64,000 bases of DNA, taken from NCBI RefSeq assembly GCF_009497155.1, contig NZ_WINI01000007.1:627137-691136 (forward strand). The letters are read 5' to 3'. This DNA is from Glaciimonas soli (GTDB lineage Bacteria > Pseudomonadota > Gammaproteobacteria > Burkholderiales > Burkholderiaceae_D). The translations under genes and the position numbers were made by a program. Below are positions 5,446 through 45,869 of this stretch, piece after piece; position 1 is the first letter of the stretch, and each line of letters opens with the position of its first letter. A model generated the notes under the pieces. The model did not search any database and was not told the origin of the DNA. It saw only the letters and a list, made by a program, of their open reading frames with translations.

Positions 5446-6795
5446 TCACACCACCATAGACAGCGCCAACGTAAACAACAGCGCTAATACCGAAATCAAG
5501 GTTTCACACACTGTCCATGTCTTGAATGTTTCAGCAACAGTCATGTTGAAATATTCTTTGACCAGCCAGAATCCACCGTCGTTAACATGCGACAAAATCA
5601 ACGAGCCGGCACCAGTAGCCAGCACCATCAACTCAGGACGCGTGCCGCCAACGCTTGCGACAATCGGCGCCACAATACCGCAAGCGGTAATCATGGCAAC
5701 AGTGGCAGAACCTGTGGCGATACGAATCAATGCAGCGACGAACCAACCTAGCAATAACGGCGACAAGTTGGCATGCGTAGCGAGCGCAACGATAGCCGTT
5801 GAAATTCCGCTGTCTTTCAGAATCTGCCCAAAGCCGGCGCCAGCGCCAACGATCAAGGTAATTCCAGCGATTGGCGCCAGACACTCGTTGGTAAATTTGA
5901 GAATCGCTTCGCGATCAAAACCACGGGCTTTACCAAAGGTGTAGAAACTCACCAGTGCAGCGATCAGCAAGGCGATAACCGAATTGCCAATCAAGCGCAG
6001 AAAATCGTTGAGGAACGTTTTTGGGGCGAAGAATACGTCTGCCCAACTACCTAACAACATCAACACAACCGGCAATAAAATCGTGAATAAAGTGATACCT
6101 AAACCTGGCAAATCACGATTGCTATCTTTTTCAACAAATTGCGCCAGGAGTGGATTTTCTGGATTTGGGAAAACAAATTTCGAAACGAGTTTAGCGAATA
6201 CAGGTCCGGCAATGATAGCGGTTGGAATACCGACGATCAACGCAAACAAAATGGTGTGACCAATGTCAGCGTTATATGCCGTGACGGCGTACAAGGCAGC
6301 CGGATGCGGCGGAATCAAACCGTGCACTACCGACAAACCGGCAACCATAGGAATGCCAACTAAAATCATCGAAGTTCCAGTGCGCTTGGCAACGTTGAAT
6401 GCGATCGGTATCAACAGCACGAATCCGACTTCGAAAAATACCGGCAAACCCACAATCAAGGCCACCACCATCATGGCCCAATGCACGTTTTTTTCACCGA
6501 AGGCACCGATCAAGGTATTCGCGATACGTTCAGCAGCGCCTGATTCAGCCATCATTTTGCCGAACATCGTTCCCAGCCCGACCACCAAAGCAATATGACC
6601 GAGCGCGCCGCCGACCCCGGTTTCATACGACTTGACGATACCAGCCATCGGCATGCCAACTGCGGCGCCCAAAATAATCGACACCACGATCAATACGATG
6701 AATGGATTCATCTTGAATTTTGCGATCAGTACCACCAACGCCATGACTGCGATCAGTGCATACAATAACAACATGTTCCCTTGCACCATCTCCAT
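5446..6795 (-). CDS. GntP family gluconate-type proton symporter
   Basis: A polytopic inner-membrane permease of 449 residues with about 12-14 hydrophobic segments and typical GntP motifs: GLPVFFEVGFVLLIP, GLIPPHPAALYAV and the C-terminal LSHVNDGGFWLVKEYF. Family members take up gluconate and related aldonic acids with protons. It is the last gene of the minus-strand operon rpiR, D-aminoacylase, ridA, permease. The neighbours suggest that the cargo is an N-acylated amino acid or amino sugar acid, perhaps N-acetyl-D-glucosaminate, rather than plain gluconate. That substrate is inference. Confidence 0.88.
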   Translation of the reverse strand: MEMVQGNMLLLYALIAVMALVVLIAKFKMNPFIVLIVVSIILGAAVGMPMAGIVKSYETGVGGALGHIALVVGLGTMFGKMMAESGAAERIANTLIGAFGEKNVHWAMMVVALIVGLPVFFEVGFVLLIPIAFNVAKRTGTSMILVGIPMVAGLSVVHGLIPPHPAALYAVTAYNADIGHTILFALIVGIPTAIIAGPVFAKLVSKFVFPNPENPLLAQFVEKDSNRDLPGLGITLFTILLPVVLMLLGSWADVFFAPKTFLNDFLRLIGNSVIALLIAALVSFYTFGKARGFDREAILKFTNECLAPIAGITLIVGAGAGFGQILKDSGISTAIVALATHANLSPLLLGWFVAALIRIATGSATVAMITACGIVAPIVASVGGTRPELMVLATGAGSLILSHVNDGGFWLVKEYFNMTVAETFKTWTVCETLISVLALLFTLALSMVV

Positions 6796-6894
6796 AACCC
6801 TCTCCTCTGTCTGAATACGCCAGTCTTGCTTTTGTTGTTACTGGCTATATGCAATACGGTTTATTTTTCGTATCAATTTTTAAAATTCATTCAA

Positions 6895-6920
6895 AATAAT
6901 TCGAACTGCTTCGAATTATT
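6895..6920. repeat. TTCGAA-rich inverted repeat between ridA and the permease gene
   Basis: AATAATTCGAA and TTCGAATTATT pair perfectly over 11 bases around a CTGC loop, and the right arm is then partly repeated. It lies just beyond the ridA stop. It may be an mRNA processing or stabilising hairpin, or a protein site. Confidence 0.5.
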
Positions 6921-6925
6921 TCGAA

Positions 6926-7309
6926 TTATTTCTTATATGCGATGCAATCCACTTCCACTTTGCAATCAACAACCATCGCCGATTGTACGCAAGCGCGCGC
7001 TGGAGGATTAGCACCAAAATATTCTTTAAACACTTTATTGAACGATTGAAAATCACGAGTATCGTCAAGCCAGACGCCACAACGGACAACGTGTTCAGGT
7101 CCGTAGCCAGCTTCAGCTAAAATTTTCAAGACATTTTTAATCGTTTGATGCGACTGAGCGACGATGCCGCCGTCAATCACTTCGCCATCGACCATCGCCA
7201 CCTGACCTGACACATACAGCCAGCCGTCGGCTTCGACAGCGCGGGCAAATGGCAAATGCTGACCGCCTGTACCGGAACCACCTTCTACACCGTAGCGTTT
7301 GATAGACAT
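6926..7309 (-). CDS. RidA family (YjgF/YER057c/UK114) protein
   Basis: RidA proteins hydrolyse reactive enamine and imine intermediates released by PLP-dependent dehydratases, forming 2-oxo acids and ammonia. The frame is open to 7375, but ATG 7309 has GGAGAG directly before it and gives 127 residues, the normal length. The core contains WLYVSGQVAM and the late-conserved ANPPARACVQSAMVVDCKVEVDCIAY, whose arginine is the usual carboxylate-binding residue. Its place beside a D-aminoacylase and opposite a PLP dehydratase-like gene fits a housekeeping role for that enzyme's intermediate. Confidence 0.9.
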   Translation of the reverse strand: MSIKRYGVEGGSGTGGQHLPFARAVEADGWLYVSGQVAMVDGEVIDGGIVAQSHQTIKNVLKILAEAGYGPEHVVRCGVWLDDTRDFQSFNKVFKEYFGANPPARACVQSAMVVDCKVEVDCIAYKK

Positions 7310-7386
7310 TTTTTCTCTCCTGTTAAATAAAAACAAATCCTTCTCCCTATTTTGAAGAAGGACTAAATCAGTCAATTTTCACACTT

Positions 7387-8877
7387 TCACTGCCGCGCTA
7401 AAAACCGCCCTGCTCTATCGCCCGTCGCGGCTTTCTCCGCACCGCCGCGATAAGACAACACACCGTTAACCCATACAGCTTCGATTCCGTCGGCGGGCTG
7501 CATCGGGTCGGTAAACGTCGCCGCATCTCGTACCGTGTCTGCATCGAATAACACCAAATCGGCCCAATAACCTACCCGAACCAAACCACGTTCTTTCAGC
7601 CCAAATCGCTCGGCCGACATACCCGTCATTTTGTTAATGGCGACCGCCAGCGGAAACAATTTTTGTTCACGACTGTAATAACCCAATACCCGCGGAAATG
7701 CGCCCCACAAGCGTGGATGCGGTAATGGGTCATTCGGCAAACCGTCGGAACCGACCACGGTTGCCGGGTGGCTGAGAATGCGATTGACATCGTCATCTTG
7801 CATGCAGTGATACACCGCGCCAGCAGGTTGCAAACGTTTCGCCGCTTCGAGCAAATCGACCTGCCACTCCGATGCAATCACCGCCAGCATTTTTCCGCCC
7901 ATTTCCGGATGAGGTTCTGACCATGTGACTTGAATATCTATGGTGTCTGTCACTTGTTTCAAATCCAGCGTGGAGGAACTGGCAGTATAGGGATAGCAAT
8001 CGCAGCCAACTACCTGATAACGCTGTGCTTGCTCCAGCGCAGCCATCACTTCACCGCTGCGTCCCCAATTTTCTACGCCAGCACACTTCATATGCGAAAT
8101 CACCACGGATACACGTGCGTGTTTGCCGATGCGAAAAGCTTCTTCCATGGCTTCCAGAATATCGGCAAACTCACTACGCAAATGCGTGGCGTAAATACCG
8201 CCTGCGGCCGCCAAAGGTGCGGCTAATGCCATCACTTCCGAAGTCGGAGCATTGATCGCATTGCCGTAAGCCAGACCGGTGCTCAGACCTAATGCACCGT
8301 GCGTCAGTGCTTCGCTTAATTGTGCGCACATCGCTGCAATTTCATCATCGGTCGCGGCGCGATCTAATTTGTCCATGTGGTTGCTGCGTAAAGCCGTGTG
8401 ACCAACCAGGGCGGCAACATTAATAGAGGGTTGCGCCTGATTGACGGCTGCAACATAGCTGGCAAAAGTTGGGTAGCTGAACGCTGCTGCCGTCCCCAAT
8501 AAATTCATAGGATCAGGCGGTATCGAATGCGGATCTTGCAGACTGACTGGCGCTGCGCTAATGCCGCAATTACCGACCACGACCGTGGTGACGCCTTGCG
8601 ACAATTTCGGCAGCATTTCTGGTTGACGAATGACATTGGTATCGTCATGCGTGTGGACATCAATAAAGCCGGGACTGAGCACTTTACCGCTGCCATCGAC
8701 TTGATGAGTAGCTTGCCAGTCATGCATTGCGCCTGCTGCCGCAATATGTTTGATTCGGCCATCAGCCAGTGCGACATCGGCAGACACATTCGTCGCAGCA
8801 CCGCTACCGTCGATCAGCGTAACGTTACGAATGATGGTGTCGTACGTTTTTTCCAATTGTGAGCTGGTCTTCATCAT
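7387..8877 (-). CDS. N-acyl-D-amino-acid deacylase (D-aminoacylase, amidohydrolase superfamily)
   Basis: A 496-residue metal-dependent amidohydrolase that removes the acyl group from N-acyl-D-amino acids. The metal and catalytic set of the family is visible: His75 and His77 in GFIDVHTHDD, Cys104 in VGNCGIS, His232 in YATHLRSE, His262 in VISHMKCAG and Asp378 in VVGSDGLPNDPLPHPR. The start lies one base after the rpiR stop and uses an AGGAG inside the end of rpiR, so the two are translationally coupled. Exact substrate is unknown; the island's kinase and aldonic acid permease suggest an N-acetyl amino sugar acid. Confidence 0.88.
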   Translation of the reverse strand: MMKTSSQLEKTYDTIIRNVTLIDGSGAATNVSADVALADGRIKHIAAAGAMHDWQATHQVDGSGKVLSPGFIDVHTHDDTNVIRQPEMLPKLSQGVTTVVVGNCGISAAPVSLQDPHSIPPDPMNLLGTAAAFSYPTFASYVAAVNQAQPSINVAALVGHTALRSNHMDKLDRAATDDEIAAMCAQLSEALTHGALGLSTGLAYGNAINAPTSEVMALAAPLAAAGGIYATHLRSEFADILEAMEEAFRIGKHARVSVVISHMKCAGVENWGRSGEVMAALEQAQRYQVVGCDCYPYTASSSTLDLKQVTDTIDIQVTWSEPHPEMGGKMLAVIASEWQVDLLEAAKRLQPAGAVYHCMQDDDVNRILSHPATVVGSDGLPNDPLPHPRLWGAFPRVLGYYSREQKLFPLAVAINKMTGMSAERFGLKERGLVRVGYWADLVLFDADTVRDAATFTDPMQPADGIEAVWVNGVLSYRGGAEKAATGDRAGRFLARQ

Positions 8878-8878
8878 C

Positions 8879-9805
8879 TTAATCTCCTAATGGCTCTCGG
8901 TTGCCATTGCCGCCAACGCCACGATGCGTATCTAAAGTGAATTTCAGACGTCGCAGCAGTTCCTGACTATGTTCTTTTTGCAGCAAAGCCAGTTCTGTCA
9001 TCAAGACGTCAAGCACCATCATCATGGCGTAGCGCGATGAAGATGGTTTGAAAATAAAATCGGTTTCCAACGATTTCACCGGCAACAACACATCGGCCAT
9101 CGCTGCCAATGGCGAACCCAGCGCAGTAATGGCAATCAATTGCACACCATATTCTTTAGCAATCGCACAACTGGCAAGTAGCTCAGGCACATTTCCAGTG
9201 GTCGACAGCACTAATATCACGTCGCTTTTGTCTATCGTCGCAGCCACCATACGCTGCAACATGGCATCGTGATAAGTTGCCACTGGACGCCCCAAACGCA
9301 GCAAACGATAACGTGCTTCGTCAGACAACATGGTCGAACCACCACCCATGCCGAAGCTATAAATCATGCGCGCTTCCAGCAAACATTGCGCGGCTCGTTG
9401 TAAAACATTCTGATTCAGCATGGCGCGATTGACTGCCAATATGTCGGCAATGTCGCCATAAATAATATCGGCCAGGTGTGCAGGCTGCGGCACTTCACCA
9501 TCGGACAGTGGGATTTCTGTTTGCAGAAAGCGTTGGCCAATGGCGACCGCCTGCGCCAGCTTCAACTTCAGATCACGCACATCGCGGCAACCCATCTCCT
9601 TGGCAAAACGCGTGACAGTGGCGACACTAACATCGGCTTGCTTTGCCAAAACGTTAATGCTGGCACTGGCGGCAAACGGTAGATCGCCTAAAATAACTTG
9701 CGCTACTTTTTGCTCCGCCAGACGCAATTGCCCGCTACGCGCGGAAATGCGCGAAACGATGTCTACAGCAATGTTTGGAGAAGGAATATCGGACATGGCA
9801 TTCAT
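8879..9805 (-). CDS. MurR/RpiR family transcriptional regulator with SIS domain
   Basis: An N-terminal helix-turn-helix domain (about residues 15-90, LAKQADVSVATVTRFAKEMGCRDVRDLKLKL) is followed by a phosphosugar-binding SIS domain (about 120-260, IYSFGMGGGSTMLSDEARYRLLRLG and VLSTTGNVPELL). The frame is open to a GTG at 9847, but that end overlaps a structured repeat. ATG 9805 or ATG 9796 is more likely, and neither has a clear ribosome site. It heads the operon with D-aminoacylase, ridA and the permease, and is divergent from the PLP enzyme gene. It probably controls both from the shared promoter and senses a sugar phosphate made by the pathway. Confidence 0.88.
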   Translation of the reverse strand: MNAMSDIPSPNIAVDIVSRISARSGQLRLAEQKVAQVILGDLPFAASASINVLAKQADVSVATVTRFAKEMGCRDVRDLKLKLAQAVAIGQRFLQTEIPLSDGEVPQPAHLADIIYGDIADILAVNRAMLNQNVLQRAAQCLLEARMIYSFGMGGGSTMLSDEARYRLLRLGRPVATYHDAMLQRMVAATIDKSDVILVLSTTGNVPELLASCAIAKEYGVQLIAITALGSPLAAMADVLLPVKSLETDFIFKPSSSRYAMMMVLDVLMTELALLQKEHSQELLRRLKFTLDTHRGVGGNGNREPLGD

Positions 9806-9824
9806 TCGTATGGTTAGGGCGTAC

Positions 9825-9908
9825 GCAAAATTGTTCCAGCAAGACACGACTACTAAGACGATACTTCAAGTACGACGAAGAGGATTAACGCCGTTGCGGC
9901 AATTTTGC
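9825..9908. repeat. Structured interspersed element, copy 2
   Basis: GCAAAATTG and CAATTTTGC form the outer stem. Inside are CAGCAAGACA, an ATAC-TTCA-AGTAC hairpin and AAGAGGATTAACGCCG. It is 84 bases long, against 83 for copies 1 and 3. Compared with copy 1, the stem base C34 has become A and its partner G has become T. The element lies 20 bases upstream of the chosen rpiR start. Confidence 0.75.
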
Positions 9909-9958
9909 ATAAGCACAAGCCTTATGAGGCCGAACTTTAGCATGCTCGAGTAGCTTTG

Positions 9959-9973
9959 TGTTACTTTGTAACA
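9959..9973. promoter_or_regulatory. HexR/RpiR-like palindrome in the divergent promoter
   Basis: TGTTACTTTGTAACA is a perfect 6-3-6 palindrome in the TGT-N9-ACA format of HexR-type RpiR operators. It sits beside a TATACT box at 9974-9979 and between the divergent rpiR and PLP enzyme genes. It is a good candidate operator for the RpiR protein of this island. Confidence 0.5.
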
Positions 9974-9998
9974 TATACTATATTGATCTGATATTTCA

Positions 9999-10018
9999 AT
10001 TTTTCCCATAGGAAAAAT
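9999..10018. promoter_or_regulatory. Second perfect inverted repeat in the divergent promoter
   Basis: ATTTTTCC-CATA-GGAAAAAT is an 8-4-8 perfect inverted repeat 47 bases before the PLP enzyme start. It could be a second regulator site or a hairpin in the 5' untranslated region. Confidence 0.4.
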
Positions 10019-10064
10019 ACTCCTCATTGATTCTCACTCCTTACCAGCAAAAGAGAAATTCATC

Positions 10065-11357
10065 ATGAATGATACAAACTACCAAGACACGTACCAACAT
10101 CCGGTAATCGATCCGCTACACAAAGGTTTAGGGGCTTATCAAGCGCCACTGGCGGCGTCCGAAGTCAAATCATTACAGTGGAATTTGTTGCGAGAAGAAG
10201 TGAGCTTGCCAACTGCGGTCTTGTACGAAGAGCGCATACAGCACAATTTGGAGTGGATGCAGCAGTTCGTCACCGAGTATGGTGTCAAACTGGCACCACA
10301 TGGCAAAACGACCATGGCGCCAAAATTATTCGCCCGCCAATTAGCCGGCGGCGCCTGGGGCATCACCTTGGCAACCGCGCATCAAACCCGTGTCGCTTAT
10401 CAACACGGCGTGCGTCGCATCATTATGGCCAATCAGTTGGTTGGCAAACAAAATATGACGGTAATTGCGGATTTGTTAAAGGATCCGTCCTTCGCTTTTT
10501 ACTGCCTGGTGGATTCAGTTGAAGGCGTGGATTTACTCGGCGCCTTCTTCAAGGCGCACCAGCAGAAAATATCCGTGCTATTGGAATTGGGTCCGGTTGG
10601 CGGCCGCACTGGTGTGCGCACAGCTGAGCAACAAAGCGCTGTATTGGAAGCCATCGCACGCTGGAAAGACCACGTCGTTCTGGCGGGTATTGAAATTTAT
10701 GAAGGCGTATTGAAAGAAGAAGCAGAAATTCGCCAATTTTTACAGCGTGCCGTCAACTGCGCCAAAGAATTAGCGCAAGCAGGAAAATTTGCAGAACATG
10801 CGGCACAGCTTCCGGTGATTTTGACTGGTGCAGGCACTGCATGGTACGACGTTGTGGCCGATGAGTTTTCTAAAGCCGACATAGGTTTGCCACTGGATGT
10901 GGTGCTACGTCCCGGCTGCTATTTAACCCACGACGTTGGCGTCTATCGTGCATCACAAGAGCAGATTCAAACTCGCAATCCCATCGCACGCAAAATGCGC
11001 AGCACCTTGCAACCGGCATTGCAGTTATGGGCCTACGTGCAATCCATTCCGGAATCTGGCAAAGCCATCATCGCTCTCGGTAAACGCGATGCCGCATTTG
11101 ATGCAGGATTACCGCTGCCGGCATTGCACTATCGCCCCGGCAATTCTGCGCCCAGCGCCACGCCATCGCATTGGGCGGTAACGGGCATGATGGATCAGCA
11201 TGCTTACATGACAGTGGCTGATGGTGACGATATTAAAGTCGGCGACATGATTGCCTTTGATATCTCTCACCCTTGTTTAACCTTCGACAAATGGCGTCAA
11301 ATTTCCGTGATTAATCCGCAATATGACGTGATTGATGTGGTGCAGACCTTCTTTTAA
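10065..11357 (+). CDS. PLP-dependent D-amino-acid dehydratase/deaminase (DSD / D-threonine aldolase-like, alanine racemase fold)
   Basis: A 430-residue fold-type III PLP enzyme. The PLP lysine is Lys81 in LAPHGKTTMAP. A zinc site of the D-serine dehydratase (DSD1) type is visible as His402 and Cys404 in ISHPCLTFDKW near the C-terminus. LRPGCYLTHD and GLPLP regions are also typical. Members act on D-serine, D-threonine or related D-amino acids with a beta-hydroxyl, giving a 2-oxo acid and ammonia. The next gene is a KDG-type kinase, so D-glucosaminate, which would give 2-keto-3-deoxygluconate, is an attractive inferred substrate. D-serine or beta-hydroxy-D-aspartate remain possible. Confidence 0.85.
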   Translation: MNDTNYQDTYQHPVIDPLHKGLGAYQAPLAASEVKSLQWNLLREEVSLPTAVLYEERIQHNLEWMQQFVTEYGVKLAPHGKTTMAPKLFARQLAGGAWGITLATAHQTRVAYQHGVRRIIMANQLVGKQNMTVIADLLKDPSFAFYCLVDSVEGVDLLGAFFKAHQQKISVLLELGPVGGRTGVRTAEQQSAVLEAIARWKDHVVLAGIEIYEGVLKEEAEIRQFLQRAVNCAKELAQAGKFAEHAAQLPVILTGAGTAWYDVVADEFSKADIGLPLDVVLRPGCYLTHDVGVYRASQEQIQTRNPIARKMRSTLQPALQLWAYVQSIPESGKAIIALGKRDAAFDAGLPLPALHYRPGNSAPSATPSHWAVTGMMDQHAYMTVADGDDIKVGDMIAFDISHPCLTFDKWRQISVINPQYDVIDVVQTFF

Positions 11358-11377
11358 ATAAGCTTGAATCTTCGATT

Positions 11378-11420
11378 TAAAAACCATCGTCATTCCCGCA
11401 TACGCGAGGATGACGGTGAA
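11378..11420. repeat. Degenerate CGTCATTCCCGC inverted repeat
   Basis: ACCATCGTCATTCCCGC and CGCGAGGATGACGGT flank a short loop between the PLP enzyme and kinase genes. It belongs to the same family as the repeat at 605-630. It could act as a weak hairpin between the two cistrons. Confidence 0.5.
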
Positions 11421-11476
11421 GGTTTTAATTGTTGAGCTTGTATTTGACATTCAAATCGTTTTTTACACTTTATTAA

Positions 11477-12442
11477 ATGAACTGTCCGAGCAATAAAATG
11501 AATAAACATAACAGCGGTTCCACTATAGATATTTTGGCCTACGGCGAAGCTATGGTGGAATTCAATCAGCGTAAAACCGATGCGCTAATGTACTTGCAAG
11601 GTTTTGGTGGCGACACGTCTAATTTCTGCATCGCTGCTGCGCGTCAAGGTGCTCGTACAGGGTATATCAGCGCTGTTGGCAATGATCATTTTGGTGAAAA
11701 ATTGCGCGAGCTGTGGCTGGATGAACAAGTCAATTACCAGCATGTCCAGACTAATCCGGATGCCGCGACTGGCGTGTATTTTGTCTCGCACCAGGAAGAC
11801 GGGCATCACTTTGATTATTTGCGCAAAGGCTCGGCCGCCAGTTTGTATGGCGCCGCACAATTGCCGCTGGACTCCATTGCTGCGGCCAAGGTCTTGCATC
11901 TTTCCGGCATCAGCCTGGCAATTAGCGAAAGCGCCTGCGATGCTGGTTTGGCAGCAATGCGACATGCGCGGGCAAATGGCGTGAAAACTTCGCTAGACAC
12001 TAATCTGCGACTACGCTTGTGGCCACTAGAACGTGCTCGTATCAAAATGCGCGAAGCGTTTTCCCTGTGCGACATTTGCCTTCCAAGCTGGGATGACATC
12101 AACACCCTCACCGGCCTTGATGATCGTGATGCCATTGTGGATGAACTATTGTCCTATGGCATAGGCTTAATCGCCTTCAAACTCGGCGCTGAAGGCTGTT
12201 ATGTCGCTACGCCAAACGAGCGTCGTTTGGTGCCGGCTTACATGGTCGATGCAATCGATGCCACCGGCGCAGGAGATTGCTTTGGCGGCGCATTCATCGC
12301 GCGCCTGGTGGCGGGTGATGATCCGTTTACTGCAGCACGTTATGCCAATGTGACGGCAGCACTATCAACGACCGGATATGGTGCAGTAGCACCGATCCCG
12401 CAGGCGGCACAAGTAAAAACAGTATTAGAATCAGCAAAATGA
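11477..12442 (+). CDS. PfkB family sugar kinase, 2-dehydro-3-deoxygluconokinase type
   Basis: A 321-residue ribokinase-superfamily kinase. The N-terminus, DILAYGEAMVEFNQ, followed by GFGGDTSNFCIAAARQG, is characteristic of KDG kinases. The C-terminal signature is DAIDATGAGDCFGGAF with catalytic Asp267. It would phosphorylate 2-keto-3-deoxygluconate to KDPG in the cytoplasm, feeding Entner-Doudoroff reactions. An alternative start at 11498 (MNKHNSG) is about equally likely; neither has a good ribosome site. It lies downstream of the PLP enzyme gene, and no aldolase is present in the window. A hairpin terminator follows. Confidence 0.85.
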   Translation: MNCPSNKMNKHNSGSTIDILAYGEAMVEFNQRKTDALMYLQGFGGDTSNFCIAAARQGARTGYISAVGNDHFGEKLRELWLDEQVNYQHVQTNPDAATGVYFVSHQEDGHHFDYLRKGSAASLYGAAQLPLDSIAAAKVLHLSGISLAISESACDAGLAAMRHARANGVKTSLDTNLRLRLWPLERARIKMREAFSLCDICLPSWDDINTLTGLDDRDAIVDELLSYGIGLIAFKLGAEGCYVATPNERRLVPAYMVDAIDATGAGDCFGGAFIARLVAGDDPFTAARYANVTAALSTTGYGAVAPIPQAAQVKTVLESAK

Positions 12443-13837: not shown

Positions 13838-15409
13838 TTACAACTGCGGATTCAATTTCTCCGATTTTGAATGCAGTTTATTTAGTGCTGATAAATATGC
13901 CTTTGCCGAAGCAACCACGATATCCAAATCGCTGCCAACGCCGTTAACGATACGACCTGATTTAGATAAGCGCATGGTAACCTCACCTTGCGATTGGGTT
14001 CCGGTAGTAATCGCATTGACAGAGAATAGCAACAATTCTGCGCCGCTTTGGACACTGCTTTCAATCGCATTGACGATAGCATCAACCGGACCGTTTCCTT
14101 GGCCCTGACATTTGACTTCTTCGCCATGCGCCGAGAACACCACGTCAGCAGTCGGCTTTTCGCCAGTTTCAGAGTGCTGTGACAATGAAACAAAACGATA
14201 ATGCTCTTCGCTATGCGACTGCTGCTCCTGTGAAACCAGCGCAATGATATCTTCGTCAAAAATTTCTGATTTTTGATCTGCCAGTTCTTTGAAACGGGCA
14301 AATGCCGCATTGGTTTCTGTTTCCGAATCGAGCTCAATGCCTAGCTCTTGCAAGCGTTGCTTGAAAGCGTTACGGCCAGACAGTTTGCCCAATACGATTT
14401 TGTTTGCGCTCCAGCCAACATCTTCGGCACGCATGATTTCGTAAGTATCACGCGCTTTCAATACGCCGTCTTGATGAATCCCGGATGCATGGGCAAATGC
14501 ATTTGCGCCAACCACGGCTTTATTCGGCTGCACAATAAAGCCGGTAATTTGGGAAACCAATCTTGACGCTGGCACGATTTGTGAGATATCGAGGCCGATA
14601 TCAAGATTGAAGTAATCACGGCGAGTTTTGACCGCCATCACGATTTCTTCCAAAGCGGTATTACCGGCACGTTCGCCCAATCCGTTGATGGTGCATTCCA
14701 CCTGACGCGCGCCGCCGATCATGACACCCGCCAGAGAATTGGCAACAGCCATTCCAAGATCGTTATGACAATGTACTGACCAGATCGCTTTGTCAGAATT
14801 AGGGATGCGCTCGCGTAGGGTGCGCAGCATATGACCATACAACTCTGGCACACCATAACCAACTGTGTCAGCAAAATTGATGGTGGTCGCACCTTCGGCA
14901 ATTACCGCTTCCAATATGCGGCACAAGAAATCCATATCGGAGCGGCTGCCATCTTCCGGGCTAAATTCAACGTCATCCGTGAAGTTACGCGCATAACGAA
15001 CCGCCGACTTGGCTTGCTCAAATACTTGATCCGGTGTCATCCGCAGTTTCTTTTCCATATGCAATGGAGAAGTAGCGAGGAAAGTATGAATACGCTTACG
15101 TTCCGCTGGCTGCAGCGCTTCCGCTGCGCGCGCGATGTCTTTGTCATTAGCGCGGGATAGTGAACAGATAGTGGAATCTTTGACAATGCCGGCAATCGTT
15201 TTGATGGCATCAAAATCACCGGGAGAAGCCGCAGCAAAACCAGCTTCAATCACGTCCACCTTCATCCGCTCCAATTGTTTAGCGATACGAATTTTTTCAT
15301 CTTTGGTCATTGATGCACCAGGCGATTGCTCACCATCACGTAGCGTGGTGTCGAATATGATGAGTTTTTCCGGAGGTGGTAAGGATATTGTTGATGCTGT
15401 TGCAGACAT
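13838..15409 (-). CDS. leuA: 2-isopropylmalate synthase
   Basis: Condenses acetyl-CoA with 2-oxoisovalerate, the committed step of leucine synthesis. The frame is open to 15472, but ATG 15409 ([31 protein letters not shown]) has AGGAG seven bases upstream and gives 523 residues. The HMGL-like TIM barrel carries [12 protein letters not shown], the metal ligands [12 protein letters not shown] and [10 protein letters not shown]. The C-terminal LeuA regulatory domain (about residues 380-515) gives leucine feedback inhibition. It lies downstream on the same strand as ilvB, ilvH and ilvC, separated by phospholipid and other genes. Confidence 0.96.
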
Positions 15410-45695: not shown

Positions 45696-45773
45696 GACCG
45701 CCTGTATGCGTAAAATTTGCATACGGGCACGTTTGAAAATGCGTTGCGGAAAAAGAAAGGGAAAATAAGAAGA

Positions 45774-45869
45774 GGCGAGCCTTGTCTGCGGCACTTGTGG
45801 GGAACAGCTGTGGCTGCTTCGTTCCCGACCTGACCAGATTCACCGTGCCACAATGCGCAGGGGCCCGCC
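45774..45869 (-). ncRNA. ffs: 4.5S signal recognition particle RNA
   Basis: Read on the minus strand, the RNA has the conserved SRP domain IV apical region, GGTCAGGTCGGGAACGAAGC, with the second half of the loop AGCAGCC. The ends GGCGGGCC and GGCTCGCC pair to close a long rod of about 96 nt. A -10 box TACAAT lies seven bases before the 5' end, and a T-rich stretch follows the 3' end. It binds Ffh and targets membrane proteins. It is the only RNA gene I find in the window. Confidence 0.9.

Follow-up and report, generated by a model that had tools for sequence, protein, structure and literature searches.

What does the divergent cluster of six genes at positions 5446-12442 of a Glaciimonas soli genome segment degrade, and by which route? 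The window, here meaning the whole stretch of 64,000 nucleotides that was analyzed (contig NZ_WINI01000007.1, positions 627,137 to 691,136), had been given a sequence-only reading in which these genes form a catabolic island for N-acetyl-D-glucosaminate (GlcNAc1A). Inspection of the encoded families, of the deacylase pocket and of related loci indicates that the cluster is very probably a GntP-fed variant of the known ong-type GlcNAc1A pathway. The features concerned are:

5446-6795, minus strand: GntP-family symporter, the proposed GlcNAc1A importer (Pfam GntP_permease, 545 bits; TIGR00791, 508 bits, cut-off 293)
6926-7309, minus strand: RidA-family protein of 127 amino acids, OngD equivalent (Pfam PF01042, Ribonuc_L-PSP, 91 bits; Arg105 present)
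7387-8877, minus strand: predicted OngB-type GlcNAc1A deacetylase of D-aminoacylase fold (Amidohydro_3, 136 bits; clade; pocket residues)
8879-9847, minus strand: RpiR-family regulator with SIS domain, OngR equivalent (HTH_6, 52 bits; SIS, 60 bits)
9959-9973, no strand assigned: palindrome TGTTACTTTGTAACA, candidate RpiR operator (TGTTA-N5-TAACA-like, conserved at the rpiR-ongC promoter)
10065-11357, plus strand: predicted OngC-type fold-III pyridoxal phosphate (PLP) deaminase of D-glucosaminate or D-amino acids (Ala_racemase_N, 34 bits; D-ser_dehydrat, 69 bits)
11477-12442, plus strand: PfkB kinase, proposed 2-keto-3-deoxygluconate (KDG) kinase (Pfam PfkB, 177 bits)

All six open reading frames (ORFs) are intact, with zero internal stops, and each matches in Pfam the family that the sequence-only reading had named; the PLP enzyme likewise has Lys81 and the zinc ligands His402/Cys404 where they had been placed. 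On the minus strand the order is RpiR-deacylase-RidA-GntP, with intergenic gaps of 1, 77 and 130 bases, and on the plus strand the PLP enzyme is followed by the kinase after 119 bases, such that two divergent operons are separated by ~217 bases. The RidA ORF reaches 7375 if a TTG start is taken, and the RpiR ORF opens with GTG at 9847, although translation more likely begins at an internal ATG. Among NCBIfam models the regulator scores best with HexR, at 171 bits and thus short of the cut-off (296).

Comparison with the published system accounts for most of this gene set. In Pseudoalteromonas prydzensis ACAM 620, OngB is reported to deacetylate GlcNAc1A, OngC to deaminate the product to KDG and KdgK to phosphorylate the latter, with the RidA protein OngD required for growth; the RpiR repressor OngR, an SSS importer, the GH20 enzyme OngA and TonB receptors complete the system, and Achromobacter piechaudii is the one betaproteobacterium named with the complete pathway (Jiang et al. 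2022, PMC9537276). An RpiR protein, an OngB-type deacetylase, a fold-III PLP deaminase, a RidA protein and a sugar kinase are common to both clusters, and the published route from GlcNAc1A through glucosaminate and KDG to 2-keto-3-deoxy-6-phosphogluconate (KDPG) is the one proposed for the window. The substrate and step order put forward earlier thus agree with a demonstrated pathway, and with a deacylase whose pocket and clade are of the GlcNAc1A type, but the accompanying supposition that the gene set was undescribed does not hold, since OngR, OngB, OngC, OngD and KdgK are already published and GntP is the sole difference. That is to say, the window cluster carries GntP where the P. prydzensis cluster carries the SSS importer OngIT, and its operons are arranged as ongC-kinase and rpiR-ongB-ridA-gntP rather than as ongCRBD and ongIT-kdgK-ongA. 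No SSS importer is present in the window cluster (SSS genes elsewhere in the genome were not searched for), and neither a GH20 OngA counterpart nor a TonB-dependent receptor is among the six genes (the remaining genome was not searched for such receptors). Among the open-access papers searched, those on GlcNAc1A contain no mention of GntP, and those on glucosaminate together with GntP, RidA, D-aminoacylase or Burkholderia give the gene set only in PMC9537276. An Aeromonas study sought this route in that genus and is reported to have been unable to confirm it (PMC11653859). The described enzyme that deaminates phosphorylated glucosaminate likewise removes ammonia to leave a 2-keto-3-deoxy acid; its substrate is phosphorylated, whereas that proposed for the window enzyme is not.

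The structure of OngB with GlcNAc1A has been solved, and residues separating OngB from D-aminoacylases have been named (Wang et al. 2025, PMC12017989). The window deacylase is identical to PpOngB at 251 of 463 aligned residues (54%) and to AfDam at 48%; among solved structures it scores 533 bits with PpOngB (9kb1), 452 with D-aminoacylase and 388 with N-acyl-D-glutamate deacylase, the closest chain being 9g5m (655 bits), labelled merely 'amidohydrolase family protein'. Its nearest named relatives are from Collimonas (82-84% identity), which points to probable membership of the organism in the Oxalobacteraceae. The subtype-V metal site and catalytic Asp are present (His75, His77, Cys104, His232, His262, Asp378), as the Cys/His/His site and catalytic Asp are in PpOngB (PDB 9kb1/9kb3), and the pocket block reads ASSSTLDLKQVT in the window deacylase versus ASSSTLDLNQVT in PpOngB. 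Ala193, Glu226, Ala256, Ser290-292 and Gln298 (PpOngB numbering) are all retained. AfDam (1M7J) and BbDam (3GIP) share the fold family, the metal site and the carboxylate and acetamide contacts with the window deacylase; in contrast to it, they carry Thr292 and lack Gln298.

These two positions sort the wider family. Gln298 occurs in 98/98 distinct OngB-like sequences (the window, 80 loci and 17 distinct members of a further 18, L090 having the same DNA as L025) and Ser292 in 97/98, locus L018 having Thr. Among 20 D-aminoacylase-like sequences, drawn from 50 matches at no more than 53% identity, Gln298 is found in 0/20 and Ser292 in 1/20, whereas Ser290 (16/20) and Ser291 (20/20) do not discriminate. 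Three further relatives, found among 274 genomes drawn from the class of a Pseudomonas genome (a class that may include betaproteobacteria), keep Gln298 and Ser292 and are altered at 290, 291 or 348. A tree of 55 rows places the window deacylase, PpOngB and 9g5m in a clade of 32 rows with 100/100 support, with AfDam and 22 other D-aminoacylase-like rows outside it; BbDam is in neither the tree nor the residue table. The published rule for D-aminoacylases and N-acyl-D-glutamate deacylases pairs Thr at position 292 with Leu or Arg at position 298 (PMC12017989), a combination not found in the window deacylase, which has Ser and Gln; position 298 of AfDam is Arg in the MAFFT alignment and Leu by structure (PMC12017989), and the criterion applied here was absence of Gln. 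Judged from these alignments, Ser292 and Gln298 are the discriminating GlcNAc1A contacts. A plain D-aminoacylase function was rejected on both clade and pocket. Applied generally, the two-residue rule would give a new name to many proteins now called 'D-aminoacylases' and to some 'D-serine deaminases'.

The PLP enzyme is OngC-type by its families and matches PDB 3gwq with 601 bits. PDB 3gwq is labelled 'D-serine deaminase' but shares 98% identity with OngC from a Paraburkholderia cluster (L052). The solved protein is thus itself OngC-type, and by this likeness its label is probably too narrow. Unlike the window enzyme, 3gwq comes from a cluster type with no kinase or GntP nearby.

For the window kinase, the best NCBIfam model is the bifunctional kinase of KDG and 2-keto-3-deoxygalactonate (KDGal), at 189 bits and below the cut-off of 400. 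Its Arg116 (YLRKGSAAS) aligns with an Arg in 3/3 KDG kinases (1wye, 3lhx, 4e69), which we take to bind the KDG carboxylate, and with Val in fructokinase 5ey7. Kinases in related clusters L091, L093 and L099 are KdgK-like at 342-375 bits, just under the same cut-off, and those of L091, L093 and L099-L101 group with 3lhx and 4e69 (100/99), the only grouping used from a kinase tree in which long branches may join falsely. At L087 a GntK-type gluconokinase (14689-15180; 159 bits, cut-off 114) lies right after GntP, in the place of the PfkB kinase. Wherever a cluster includes a kinase, it belongs to one of three types, and the best matches of all three are kinases of sugar acids or KDG-like ones. 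This speaks for a sugar acid as intermediate, although most clusters have no kinase nearby. The earlier argument that only a D-amino acid with a polyhydroxyl side chain would need a KDG kinase is fair for the window cluster, but it does not extend to 64 Burkholderia-type clusters that keep the deacylase type, OngC and RpiR with no kinase or GntP in their flanks; this type of deacylase can thus occur without a linked kinase.

Inspection of related loci reveals how far the arrangement is shared. Because these loci were found via the deacylase, its occurrence in each of them carries no weight, and flanks extended at most 10 kb with some contigs ending early, such that absence nearby does not equal absence. 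The same six genes stand in the same order in 15/15 loci whose deacylase is at least 74% identical, including Collimonas, Herbaspirillum, Cupriavidus and Ralstonia, and the arrangement is thus not due to chance; the 74% cut was chosen after the data were seen, and the next locus (L087, 73%) has no PfkB kinase. The window RidA is 83-96% identical to those of the 15. A KDPG-aldolase homologue follows the kinase in 5/5 Cupriavidus/Ralstonia-type clusters, its family being checked in Cupriavidus pauculus L009 alone, where it is KDPG-type (265 bits, cut-off 241) rather than of the type acting on 2-keto-3-deoxy-6-phosphogalactonate (KDPGal; 108 bits, cut-off 207).

Beyond these 15, the importer and the kinase are the variable parts. 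Group f27 (L091, L093, L094) has OngC-GntP-RpiR-OngB-RidA-kinase, with a KdgK-like kinase in the two scanned. In group f5, L099-L101 have OngC-RpiR-OngB-RidA and a KdgK-like kinase, and L092 and L095 have RpiR-OngB-RidA with no kinase seen and OngC in L095 only, the L092 contig ending there. Group f4 (L089, L097, L098) has OngC and RpiR-OngB-RidA, and in the two scanned a dipeptide-type ATP-binding cassette (ABC) transporter lies between them. All 64 distinct Burkholderia-type loci (L013-L080 minus six Pseudomonas loci, plus L088 and L096) have OngC, RpiR and OngB, and 63/64 have RidA (the remaining contig ends); GntP and kinase occur in 0/64 flanks. The six Pseudomonas loci all have GntP-RpiR-OngB without OngC, RidA or KdgK nearby. 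L128 and L129 have OngC-GntP-RpiR-OngB-RidA, and L130 has OngC, OngB and RidA with an SSS importer adjoining RidA, as published.

Three observations were made alongside. The Burkholderia-type clusters retain the OngB pocket residues despite having no kinase or GntP in their flanks. The transporter of L089 (11343-16843) and L097 (2674-7162), comprising SBP_bac_5, permease and ATPase, could possibly import GlcNAc1A or oxidised oligosaccharides. A protein of ~390 amino acids, 84% identical among its copies, follows kdgK at L099 (11992-13176), L100 (8620-9966) and L101 (12305-13477), in genomes with an AA10 lytic polysaccharide monooxygenase (LPMO); none of the three copies matches a Pfam family even at an E threshold of 1, the L101 copy has no NCBIfam match, and the only hint for that copy is a GH18 protein in the PDB (E 0.013). 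At L099 a TonB receptor gene comes next after it, and a GH18 chitinase gene lies upstream at a distance of some kilobases. The ~390-residue protein may be a novel hydrolase acting on oxidised chitooligosaccharides.

Several findings weigh against a GlcNAc1A assignment for the window. Besides glucosaminate, OngC of P. prydzensis accepts D-serine and D-threonine (PMC9537276), and some GntP-family members transport D-serine. Pocket position 348 of the deacylase is Cys, as compared with Gly in PpOngB and Asn in many relatives. No member of the GntP family is known to transport GlcNAc1A. The kinase falls under the cut-off of every kinase model matched, and its best solved relative, KDG kinase 1wye (128 bits), is followed by a fructokinase (123 bits). 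In the majority of clusters having this type of deacylase, no kinase is seen in the flanks (64 Burkholderia-type, 6 Pseudomonas and 3 f4 loci, L092, L095 and L128-L130), and GntP occurs without a PfkB kinase in L087, L128, L129 and the Pseudomonas loci. In the genome as a whole, AA10 LPMO (PF03067), GH20 and a membrane pyrroloquinoline quinone (PQQ) glucose dehydrogenase were not found, and GH18 gave one match, below cut-off.

The substrate range of OngC and the many clusters without a nearby kinase would suit catabolism of N-acyl-D-serine or N-acyl-D-threonine, in which the D-amino acid released by the deacylase is turned by the PLP enzyme into pyruvate or 2-oxobutyrate, and the kinase has an unrelated task; the label of 3gwq, the nearest solved PLP enzyme, and the membership of DsdX in the GntP family point the same way, the window GntP scoring 350 bits with the DsdX model, below its cut-off of 618. 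We nonetheless consider this improbable, given a kinase in 15/15 closest loci, a KDPG aldolase in 5 of these, and the Gln298/Ser292 pair that sets the window deacylase apart from D-aminoacylases. Moreover, PpOngB activity on N-acetyl-D-amino acids is reported as undetectable (2025; PMC12017989) or as little or none on N-acetyl-D-serine and N-acetyl-D-glutamate (2022; PMC9537276). The best kinase model, being bifunctional, would equally serve a C4 epimer route from N-acetyl-D-galactosaminate through KDGal to KDPGal, and the genome also encodes a KDPGal-type aldolase (L083). The aldolase beside the kinase in C. pauculus is KDPG-type, on which ground the KDPGal route was rejected; we know of no abundant source of galactosaminate, and the epimer route appears quite improbable. 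Should the cluster mainly take up free D-glucosaminate or another N-acylated aldonic amino acid, acetyl removal would be incidental. GntP specificity is unreadable from sequence, and the Pseudomonas clusters keep GntP-RpiR-OngB without the downstream enzymes nearby (6/6); still, the deacylase pocket is kept throughout, which is unexpected for an unused enzyme and makes such a role very improbable.

With the GntP-fed ong-type pathway preferred, the source of its substrate can be considered. Because no AA10 LPMO, GH20, membrane PQQ glucose dehydrogenase or GH18 above cut-off was found, no internal source of GlcNAc1A was found, and the organism probably scavenges GlcNAc1A made by others. The sequence-only reading had traced the substrate to oxidised chitin, but chitin oxidation by the organism itself gains no support from this result; production of GlcNAc1A by an AA10 LPMO of its own, or by a membrane PQQ glucose dehydrogenase, was rejected because neither was found. 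Since GntP also replaces the SSS importer, the cluster is best described as a GntP-fed, probably scavenging variant. The genome has three NagA-family genes over cut-off and a KDPG-type aldolase.

Co-occurrence with chitin LPMO genes, which the sequence-only reading had proposed to look for, is seen in the order and not in the genome itself. Of 300 genomes of the order, 19 have an OngB-like deacylase (at least 64% identity, a threshold set after seeing a gap down to 53%), 22 an AA10 LPMO and 8 both, with at most five first-look candidates scored per genome and the deacylase and LPMO draws taken as the same. The LPMO occurs in 8/19 OngB-like genomes versus 14/281 others (Fisher p 1e-5) and in 0/38 with a D-aminoacylase-like protein only; by genus, counted by hand, the figures are 6/14 versus 8/121 (p 8e-4), genome kinship making the Fisher values optimistic. 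Among the 80 relatives' genomes, 11/40 tested have an LPMO, comprising 6/6 Pseudomonas, 3/12 of the closest type (one a short fragment with a stop) and 2/22 Burkholderia-type. The OngB-type enzyme thus goes with LPMO in several lineages, and the window genome itself has none. A broader proposal, to which we assign about an even chance, is that Betaproteobacteria carry a scavenging form of oxidised-chitin catabolism, in which GntP or a dipeptide-type ABC transporter imports GlcNAc1A released by the LPMOs of others, at least three kinase types are used, and the LPMO/GH20 front end is missing in several lineages, that of the window among them. Soil and fresh water are presumably the habitats of these bacteria. 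If true, GlcNAc1A would be a shared public good and not merely an internal intermediate of marine chitin degraders. On the preferred reading, the cluster and its relatives extend to a broad set of Betaproteobacteria a pathway described mainly in marine Gammaproteobacteria, and they suggest that bacteria without chitin-cutting enzymes live on oxidised chitin ends from others.

The proposed sequence of events in the GntP-fed pathway is as follows. GntP would import GlcNAc1A, probably scavenged from other organisms, and the OngB-type zinc amidohydrolase, by its clade and pocket, would strip acetate to give D-glucosaminate. The OngC-type PLP/zinc enzyme would then eliminate ammonia to leave KDG, RidA would hydrolyse the enamine or imine, and the PfkB kinase would yield KDPG, for cleavage to pyruvate and glyceraldehyde-3-phosphate by the KDPG aldolase presumably supplied from elsewhere in the genome. 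The RpiR protein may act at the 9959-9973 palindrome to keep both divergent operons repressed, with repression ending once it senses a sugar phosphate. A new GlcNAc1A importer and a new operator are thereby predicted.

The palindrome is likely the operator of the RpiR protein, as its conservation suggests. A relaxed form, written after the sites were seen, occurs once per counterpart region in 16/16 related loci (L001-L012, L084-L087), none of which has a further copy elsewhere, with variants TGTTACTTTATAACA in Cupriavidus and TGTTATTTACTAACA in Herbaspirillum, and an alignment of 14 rpiR-ongC regions places 5/9 invariant columns in the site. A second conserved block lies downstream of it in other genera and is weak in the window. 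Across the genome, TGTTACNNNGTAACA is matched exactly by the site at 9959-9973 alone. If up to one mismatch is allowed, the genome has 5 sites (1 exact), as compared with 15 for a reversed control pattern, and with up to two mismatches the window has 3, where shuffles average 1.9 and 25/100 reach 3. It is thus conservation, and not the number of sites, that speaks for an operator. A regulon beyond the cluster was rejected, the four other genomic sites being within noise. The main text of PMC9537276 contains no mention of a palindrome, binding site or motif, electrophoretic mobility shift assay or operator.

The cluster sits in a 4.27 Mb genome of 30 contigs (completeness 100), and its flanks are ordinary, with a ChaC-like gene (Pfam) and, by eye from translations, transketolase, an RsmE-type methyltransferase and 2-isopropylmalate synthase. 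A short inverted repeat resembling repetitive extragenic palindromes (GTCATTCCCGC...GCGAGGATGAC) lies at 11380-11426, in the gap that separates ongC from the kinase gene, with a second GTCATTCCCGC copy at 615 on the opposite strand. Elsewhere in the window, an ordinary bacterial small signal recognition particle RNA lies at 45771-45869 on the minus strand (76.6 bits).

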